Source: Dehalococcoidia bacterium
GTDB taxonomy: Bacteria > Chloroflexota > Dehalococcoidia > Lucifugimonadales > UBA3495
NCBI GenBank assembly: GCA_022827095.1
Contig: JAJDTP010000009.1
Coordinates: 124,001-188,000 of the forward strand
Direction: 5' to 3'
DNA: 64,000 nucleotides
A program made the position numbers and the translations under genes. Below are positions 24,331 through 61,403 of the stretch, piece by piece. Under the pieces are notes generated by a model. It had not been told where the DNA came from. It saw nothing but the letters and a program-made list of their open reading frames with translations, and did not search any database. Each line of letters opens with the position of its first letter. Position 1 is the stretch's first letter.

Positions 24331-25482
24331 ATGGACGGCATCTACCTCGACTACAACGCCACCACGCCCATTGACCCCGCCGTCGCCGCGGCCATGCTGC
24401 CCTACGTGCACGGGCTCTTCGGCAACCCGTCCAGCGGCCACGCCTTCGGCCTTGCCGCACGCGAGGGAGTTGACCTGGCCCGGCAGCAGGTGGCTGCGAT
24501 GTTGGGTTGCTCGGCGGACGACCTGATCTTCATCAGCGGCGGCACCGAGGCCAACAACCACGCCATCAAAGGCGTCATCGGCTCTCACCGCCATCGCGGC
24601 AACCACATCATCACCTCGGCGGTCGAACATCCGGCGGTGACCGAGGTCTGCCGGTTTCTTGAGGGGCAAGGGGTACGCACCACTTACCTGCCCGTTGACG
24701 AGTACGGGATGGTTGACCCCCGACAGGTCGAAGACGCCATCACACCCGAGACAGTGCTGGTCACCATCATGCACGCCAACAACGAGGTCGGGTCCATCCA
24801 GCCCATCGCCGAGATCGCTGAAATCGCCCACCGCCACGGCGTGCTGGTGCACAGCGACTGCGCCCAATCCGTCGGCAAGATTCCCGTGAAGGTGGACGAC
24901 CTGGGCGTCGATCTCCTTTCCGTGGCCGGCCACAAGCTGTACGCGCCCAAGGGCATCGGCGCGTTGTACATCCGTCCCGGCGTCCAGCTGGAAAAATTCA
25001 TGCACGGCGCCAACCACGAGGGGAACCGCCGCGCCGGTACCGAGAACATCATCCTCATGGCCGGCCTGGGCAAAGCCTGCGAACTCATCGAGCGTAACCT
25101 GGCCGAATACGCCGGCCACATGGCCGCCATGCGCGACCGCCTGGAGCAGGGCCTGCTGGCATCGGGCCACGACGCCCGGGTCAACGGCCACCCGACCGAA
25201 CGGTTGCCCAATACTTGCAGCATCGGCTTGCGTGGATTTGAAGCGGATGGCATACTTGCCGGTCTGCCTACGGTGGCTGCCTCGGCCGGCGCGGCCTGCC
25301 ACAGTGACCAGGTGGAGCTGTCCCACGTGCTCGAAGCCATGCGCGTGCCCACGGAGTACGCCATGGGTACTCTGCGCCTCACTGTGGGCCGTTACACTAC
25401 CGAAGACGAGGTGGACCGGGCGATTGCTGAAATCACGGACGTGGTTGCCCGACTGTCGCCGGTACAAATAGCTGCCAACTGA
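24331..25482 (+). CDS. Cysteine desulfurase (NifS/IscS-like)
   Basis: A 383-residue class V aminotransferase-fold PLP enzyme. The N-terminal YLDYNATTPIDPAV and SGGTEANNHAIKG are diagnostic. Lys202 in SVAGHKLYAPKG binds PLP, and Cys323 in ASAGAACHSDQ is the persulfide-forming residue in the loop of group I desulfurases. It mobilises sulfur, or selenium, from (seleno)cysteine. The ATG at 24331, with GGAG ten bases upstream, fits the family N-terminus better than the in-frame upstream codons. No IscU or IscR gene adjoins it. Given the selenoprotein at 60384, a selenium-delivery role is possible but unproven. Confidence 0.93.
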   Translation: MDGIYLDYNATTPIDPAVAAAMLPYVHGLFGNPSSGHAFGLAAREGVDLARQQVAAMLGCSADDLIFISGGTEANNHAIKGVIGSHRHRGNHIITSAVEHPAVTEVCRFLEGQGVRTTYLPVDEYGMVDPRQVEDAITPETVLVTIMHANNEVGSIQPIAEIAEIAHRHGVLVHSDCAQSVGKIPVKVDDLGVDLLSVAGHKLYAPKGIGALYIRPGVQLEKFMHGANHEGNRRAGTENIILMAGLGKACELIERNLAEYAGHMAAMRDRLEQGLLASGHDARVNGHPTERLPNTCSIGLRGFEADGILAGLPTVAASAGAACHSDQVELSHVLEAMRVPTEYAMGTLRLTVGRYTTEDEVDRAIAEITDVVARLSPVQIAAN

Positions 25483-59957: not shown

Positions 59958-60314
59958 ATGACCACCGTTGTCGATTACCACGCTGAACGGAGTTGGCATT
60001 TTCTCGATCTGGTGGACGACGAGGTTGAACGCGGTGAATTGGAGGAGGCCTGCAACAAGATCTGGGGCGCGGCCGCCCATGCTATCAAAGCCGTCGCCGA
60101 GCGCAGAGGGTGGTTCCATGGATCGCACAATGCCCTGGCGGAAACGGTATTGCGTCTGATTGATGACGAGGGTGCCCCTCCGGTGCTGTACACCTACTAC
60201 CTCGCCGCAAGCTCGTTCTACTCACGGTTCTACGGCTGGCCCCCCGGCGTGGACGAAATCCGCCACGGTAAAGGGGAAATTGCTAACTTCATCCGTATGC
60301 TGGAAAATCTGTGA
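59958..60314 (+). CDS. PaREP1/HEPN-like protein
   Basis: A 118-residue all-helical protein. WHFLDLVDDEVERGELEEACNKIWGAAAHAIKAVAERRGWFHGSHNAL has the PaREP1-like pattern (PF05942): a helix with a Lys-x-Trp-Gly-Ala segment and a following His-containing turn, akin to HEPN folds. Members are abundant in archaeal and bacterial genomes without a settled function; some HEPN proteins are RNases. The start ATG 59958 has only a weak ribosome-binding site. The selenoprotein gene starts 69 bases later on the same strand. Confidence 0.72.
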   Translation: MTTVVDYHAERSWHFLDLVDDEVERGELEEACNKIWGAAAHAIKAVAERRGWFHGSHNALAETVLRLIDDEGAPPVLYTYYLAASSFYSRFYGWPPGVDEIRHGKGEIANFIRMLENL

Positions 60315-60367: not shown

Positions 60368-60372
60368 AGGAG
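60368..60372 (+). promoter_or_regulatory. Ribosome-binding site of the selenoprotein gene
   Basis: AGGAG lies 11 bases before the ATG at 60384. It supports translation initiating upstream of the in-frame UGA. Confidence 0.75.
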
Positions 60373-60383
60373 AATCAACCCGA

Positions 60384-60701
60384 ATGACTATGACCCGCTC
60401 AGAGTTTGGCAAGGTTGAAGTGGATATCGTCTACTGCGTGCCTTGAGGCTACCACGGCCTCGCCACGTGGCTGGCGACCGAATTCTGGCGTTCCCAAAAC
60501 GCCGGCGATATTGCAATCAAGCTCACCCCCGCGGACAAGGGCCGCCTCGAGATCTATCTGGACGGCGAGAAGATCTTCGATCGTTTTGACGAGGATGGCG
60601 ACGAGTACCCGGGCTACAGCAAGGTCAACGAGCTCAAGATGGTCGTGGCCGAGCGTGTCTTCGACGTCGAAGACGAGATCGCTGCTGCGAGAAACGCATA
60701 G
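60384..60701 (+). CDS. SelW/Rdx-family selenoprotein with in-frame UGA
   Basis: A 105-residue protein (including selenocysteine) of the SelT/SelW/SelH (Rdx) family. Codon 21, TGA at 60444-60446, is read as Sec in VYCVPUGY, giving the CxxU redox motif after the first strand. The frame continues without another stop for 84 codons and matches the family: a helix (HGLATWLATEFWRSQ), then IAIKLTPADKGRLEIYLDGEKIFDRF. Its thioredoxin-like fold and CxxU point to thiol-disulfide redox work. UGA is a normal stop in nearby genes, so this is recoding, not a changed code. TAG at 60699 abuts the next gene's ATG. A possible SECIS hairpin begins six bases after the UGA. Confidence 0.9.
60452..60470 (+). promoter_or_regulatory. 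Possible bacterial SECIS hairpin
   Basis: CCACG (60452-60456) and CGTGG (60466-60470) can pair around a nine-base loop, GCCTCGCCA, just downstream of the UGA at 60444. Position is right for a bacterial SECIS, but the loop lacks an obvious GU/GGU apex, so the exact fold is uncertain. Confidence 0.4.
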
Positions 60702-61403
60702 ATGGCCAATCCCGATCATGTAGCCGCGGTCACCGGCGGCAAGAAAAACCTCGAAGCGTGGCGGTCCGCCAATCCTGATCAGCATCTTGATCTTCGCGCC
60801 GCCGACTTGTCCGGACTTGACCTGTCCGGCATGGACCTGCGCGATGCCGATTTGCGGGGAGCATCCCTGTCGGACGCCCGCTTGACCCGGGCCAACCTGT
60901 CCCGCTGCGATCTGCGCGCCGCCGATTTCACGGGAGCCGATCTCTATGGCGCTACCCTGTCTTCCGCGCAAATGGCGATGGCCATCCTGCGGAACGTCAA
61001 CCTCTTCTGGGCCGACCTCAAGCAGTCGAATATGCAGGAGGCGATCCTGCAGTGGTCCCGCCTCAATCGGGCTTCGTTCCTCAACACGGACCTGACCGAC
61101 GCCGATTGCAGCCAGGTCACCGCCATTGAGGTCGACCTGCGTTCCGCGGACCTGACCAACTCCAACTGGCAGGGCGCCAATCTGAACGGAGCTGACGTGA
61201 GCCGCGCTACCATGCGGGGGGCGGACTTCACCAACGCCAAGATCCGCGACTCCATGTGGATCATGACCGACATGCGTGGCGCAAACTTCAACCGCGCGAG
61301 TCTGCACCGCTGCGACATGACCATGAGCAAGTGGGACGACACGACCAACTTCCCGCCTGGCTTTGATCCGAACTATATTGAGAACCGGGTCGACGACTAC
61401 TAG
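60702..61403 (+). CDS. Pentapeptide-repeat protein
   Basis: A 233-residue protein. From about residue 28 on it is a nearly continuous series of A(D/N)LxX five-residue repeats (LRAADLSGLDLSGMDLRDADLRGASLSDARL...), forming a right-handed quadrilateral beta-helix. It starts immediately after the selenoprotein stop (TAG-ATG), so coupled translation is expected. Such helices can mimic DNA (Qnr/MfpA-type) or serve as scaffolds; nothing here identifies the partner. The antisense strand also looks open because the repeats are so regular; that frame is not a gene. Confidence 0.93.
   Translation: MANPDHVAAVTGGKKNLEAWRSANPDQHLDLRAADLSGLDLSGMDLRDADLRGASLSDARLTRANLSRCDLRAADFTGADLYGATLSSAQMAMAILRNVNLFWADLKQSNMQEAILQWSRLNRASFLNTDLTDADCSQVTAIEVDLRSADLTNSNWQGANLNGADVSRATMRGADFTNAKIRDSMWIMTDMRGANFNRASLHRCDMTMSKWDDTTNFPPGFDPNYIENRVDDY

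Follow-up and report, generated by a model that had tools for sequence, protein, structure and literature searches.

The interrupted reading frame at positions 60384-60701 of the window, the 64,000-nucleotide stretch of Dehalococcoidia DNA that was analyzed, is a genuine gene for a selenoprotein, one of the bacterial SelW-like proteins, a well-known family. The UGA within it almost certainly encodes selenocysteine (Sec), since all of the Sec machinery is encoded in the same genome. The best explanation of the locus, to which we assign a probability of about 96%, is an Rdx-family, SelW-like selenoprotein with Sec inserted at codon 21 and a predicted function as a thiol/selenol oxidoreductase. 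The frame, family, predicted fold, conservation, machinery and hairpin described below were all computed. The initial annotation had called this an overlooked selenoprotein, which is true relative to standard gene calling but not of the family itself. The coordinates of the features are given in Table 1.

Table 1. Features of the SelW-like locus and related genes. Positions without a contig are those of the window; G000 is the genome from which the window comes, and C5 and C20 are contigs of that genome.
Feature	Location	Strand	Description or basis
selW-like selenoprotein gene	60384..60701	+	105 residues, Sec at 21, stop TAG 60699-60701
CxxU active-site motif	60435..60446	+	TGC GTG CCT TGA = C18-V-P-U21
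In-frame UGA, candidate Sec codon	60444..60446	+	Codon 21; homologue codons and genomic Sec machinery
AGGAG, candidate ribosome-binding site	60368..60372	+	11 nt upstream of ATG 60384; sequence
Candidate bacterial SECIS hairpin	60460..60477	+	Stem UCGCCA/UGGCGA, loop CGUGGC, 19 nt 3' of UGA, -7.9 kcal/mol
Pentapeptide-repeat protein gene	60702..61403	+	ATG at 60702 directly after selW; conserved neighbour
HEPN/PaREP1-type small protein gene	59958-60314		29.6 bits to PF05942
SelW-like paralogues in G000	C5 66382-66666 and C5 552825-553091		TGA at CxxU; both match Rdx
selD (L016)	G000:C20:25694-26614	minus	Own in-frame TGA, HCAGUAAK

The interrupted frame and its family

Read through the TGA, the frame encodes one unbroken 105-residue protein (MTMTRSEFGKVEVDIVYCVPUGYHGLATW...AAARNA), as the initial annotation had described. 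That annotation had also recognized a CxxU redox site with a sequence fitting the family on both sides of it, and profile searches bear this out. The Pfam Rdx model (PF10262) matches the protein at 45.4 bits (E 9.8e-12; cut-off 22.6) and TIGR02174 (CXXU_selWTH) matches it at 36 bits (cut-off 34.2). The Rdx alignment crosses the TGA, running from residue 12 to 85 of the protein and from position 1 to 69 of the profile. The proposed ribosome-binding site ahead of the ATG and the stop codon abutting the start of the next gene were both located (Table 1).

Standard gene calling would cut this frame at the TGA, which is what a true stop codon would call for, with a 20-residue upstream peptide and a separate downstream ORF. 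We regard a true stop as extremely improbable. The Rdx match spans the codon, the fold's first strand and its conserved YC lie within the first 20 residues, and TGA is replaced by Cys codons alone in homologues. As had been claimed, UGA is a genuine stop elsewhere in the window: the nearby gene at 59958-60314 terminates in TGA. The selW frames of several orthologues (L032-L037) themselves terminate in TGA as well. A scan of the window for further in-frame TGA codons with a redox motif returned, besides 60384-60701, low-complexity or out-of-frame candidates only, as judged by eye.

The codon at position 21 in paralogues and homologues

Three SelW copies are present in the genome, including the window gene, and each has TGA at the CxxU motif. 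The two paralogues (L002 and L003) carry the motifs CVPU and CWDU and share 44% and 32% identity with the window protein, respectively. In a collection of 84,980 genomes, a scan turned up 24 related loci with 33-98% identity. All of them are labelled as Dehalococcoidia, SAR202 or Chloroflexi/Chloroflexota MAGs, and nearly all as Dehalococcoidia/SAR202. TGA is retained at codon 21 in 24/24 of these loci from other genomes and, therefore, its presence is not due to chance.

In a class-wide search of 245 genomes, a homologue was present in 94, and in every homologue read, codon 21 was TGA, TGT or TGC and never anything else. Whether Sec or Cys occupies position 21 had been named beforehand as a check on the annotation, and only these residues were seen. 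The in-frame UGA of the window gene thus aligns with Sec or Cys in its homologues, which is a criterion for bacterial selenoproteins. G014 and G050, which belong to the same order as the window's genome and yielded no full SelA or SelB, have TGT at this codon (L077 and L078).

These codons bear on the possibility that a Cys codon, TGC or TGT, was turned into TGA in a gene that is broken or misread. TGA is one base from both TGT and TGC, and Cys forms do occur in the class. Against a pseudogene or sequencing error, the independent assemblies all carry TGA, as do both paralogues in the window's genome and many more loci of the class, and the protein beyond the TGA remains conserved. Since homologues hold only TGA, TGT or TGC at this position and TGA is conserved across independent genomes, we consider sequencing error and pseudogene to be ruled out, with a negligible probability left to them.

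Selenocysteine machinery and the SECIS-like hairpin

The window comes from a draft genome of 3.79 Mb in 35 contigs, which is 97.65% complete with 4.24% estimated contamination. The initial annotation had predicted selA, selB, selC and selD elsewhere in this genome, and all of the corresponding genes were found above their cut-offs. The scores were 540.9 bits for selA (cut-off 267.9), 355.5 bits for selB, which is full length (cut-off 242.25), 376 bits for selD (cut-off 125) and 66.4 bits for tRNA-Sec (cut-off 47), the anticodon of which is TCA (UCA) by ARAGORN. selA and both SelW paralogues share one large contig, C5, and it is, therefore, unlikely that selA is a contaminant. The selD gene of this genome is a selenoprotein gene too, with its in-frame TGA at a site (HCAGUAAK) that we take to be the known Sec/Cys position of SelD proteins. 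One further suggestion, that a class III desulfurase at 24331 could be a selenium source, gained no support. The best score of this frame is with NifS (472 bits, where 530.75 are needed), followed by IscS models, also below their cut-offs, and it therefore gives no evidence for a supply specific to selenium.

UGA could also be decoded as a residue other than Sec, by near-cognate suppression or by reassignment to Trp, and such decoding would at first glance give the same picture, with UGA in frame in several of a genome's genes. We judge this to be very improbable, given that UGA terminates other genes of the window and that homologues have Cys, never Trp, at position 21. The presence of tRNA-Sec, SelA, SelB and SelD in the genome and of a SECIS-like hairpin 3' of the UGA also speaks against it.

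The TGA form of the gene, which we read as encoding Sec, is associated with SelA. SelA was found in 42/50 genomes with a TGA form and in 119/195 without one (Fisher p 0.0024). The link was weaker when only genomes encoding a SelW homologue of any kind were counted (42/50 and 30/44, p 0.09). Eight genomes encode SelW in the TGA form, yet a complete SelA was not found in them (G015, G137, G158, G169, G196, G212, G225 and G231). This is probably due to incomplete bins with missing contigs, since SelB is above its cut-off in six of the eight and one of those six, G158, has a SelA fragment. Four of the five genomes with a TGA form in family f71 fall among these eight.

A search of the whole 64-kb window with Rfam gave no match and, therefore, the hairpin was checked against published rules for bacterial SECIS elements. 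These rules call for an apical loop of 3-9 nt with a G within loop positions 1-2, a stem of 4-16 bp, a distance of 16-37 nt from the UGA and an energy of -7.5 kcal/mol or lower (PMC13188914). The hairpin at 60460-60477 agrees with all of them, with a loop of 6 nt, a stem of 6 bp, a spacing of 19 nt and an energy of -7.9 kcal/mol. On its own, it is modest evidence for a SECIS because 7% of synonymous recodings of the window sequence yield an equally stable hairpin at that spacing.

Hairpins were also compared between TGA and Cys forms of the gene. A hairpin of -5 kcal/mol or lower at 16-24 nt was present in 58 of 68 distinct TGA forms compared to 8 of 39 Cys forms. The difference in hairpin energies has a p-value of 3.5e-6; the compared sequences are related, which makes the p-values too small and indicative only. 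The median percentile of each form in its own synonymous null was 0.11 for TGA forms and 0.72 for Cys forms. A first alignment, mostly of close orthologues, showed weak covariation (1/6 pairs). Double changes were clearer with wider sampling, where stem pairing is kept through two-sided changes, such as UA, GC and CG at +14/+31. Within the SelW family, the stem is found in either of two registers, which are offset by three bases. A Cys-type homologue (L080, in G142) has a SECIS-like hairpin, GGGCCA-CAUGGC-UGGCCC, with no G in loop positions 1-2, and this hairpin might be a remnant of a Sec-to-Cys change.

Predicted function, neighbours and comparison with known systems

An AlphaFold2 model of the window protein (pLDDT 83.7, pTM 0.77) predicts a strand followed by a helix, three further strands and a second helix. 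In the model, the CxxU motif (residues 18-21) lies in the loop between strand 11-18 and helix 24-37. Foldseek returned 22 matches with E up to 0.001, all of them SelW-family structures, mouse SelW included, and sequence-profile matches to known structures agree with this result. From established pathway knowledge, SelD would make selenophosphate, which SelA would use to convert seryl-tRNA-Sec to selenocysteyl-tRNA-Sec. SelB would then deliver Sec-tRNA-Sec to the ribosome at UGA codon 21, given the hairpin at 60460-60477. The predicted product is a small thioredoxin-like selenol/thiol oxidoreductase with Cys18 and Sec21, and this site may engage partner proteins in the exchange of disulfide, selenenylsulfide or glutathione adducts. 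A redox function was suggested from the CXXU motif in the Sargasso Sea paper, where the function was called unclear (PMC1088965).

The pentapeptide-repeat gene lies downstream of SelW in 23/23 orthologous loci (L028-L050), with about 51-90% identity, and this conserved adjacency suggests a functional link between the two proteins. That the Sec-type SelW of the Dehalococcoidia clade works together with the adjacent protein is a tentative and rather unlikely proposal. If true, the pentapeptide-repeat protein would be a specific partner for a bacterial SelW family. A MaoC-like gene pair is found upstream of SelW in many orthologous loci. The HEPN/PaREP1-like gene between this pair and SelW is patchy, being present in some related loci and missing from others. 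The conserved neighbours of SelW provide a lead.

Bacterial SelW-like selenoproteins are known from the Sargasso Sea and GOS selenoproteomes (PMC1088965, PMC2398784). The SELENOW-like family (PF10262, CxxU) is among the prokaryotic families predicted with high confidence (PMC13188914). The window gene has in common with this family the domain, the CxxU motif with UGA at the second redox position and a bacterial-type SECIS, here a candidate, in the coding region just 3' of the UGA. There is no difference of kind; the window gene comes from a Dehalococcoidia/SAR202 clade, and its genome has three Sec-type copies. The Cys-type Rdx structures 2OKA, 2OBK, 2FA8, 2P0G and 3DEX have the same fold (TM about 0.6-0.7, query-normalised) and a clear sequence match to the window protein. 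As read from the alignments, 2P0G and 2FA8 have CxxC where the window protein has CxxU, and the window protein differs from the Cys-type structures in a predicted long C-terminal helix (78-103). Mouse SelW (2NPB) shares the fold as well (Foldseek E 1.8e-4, profile E 0.0015, about 23% identity). Eukaryotic SECIS elements are located in the 3' UTR (PMC1088965), whereas the window hairpin is of the bacterial type and lies within the coding sequence.

The window SelW is an ordinary but solid addition to a known family. Literature searches found no report on selenoproteins of this lineage in the library covered; two papers that mention both SAR202 and selenocysteine have other subjects, judging by title and abstract. 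With Sec insertion in the host organism inferred from the data above, this SAR202/Dehalococcoidia lineage would be a selenocysteine user. At least four of its genes, three SelW-like genes and selD, have an in-frame UGA and would be cut short by standard annotation.
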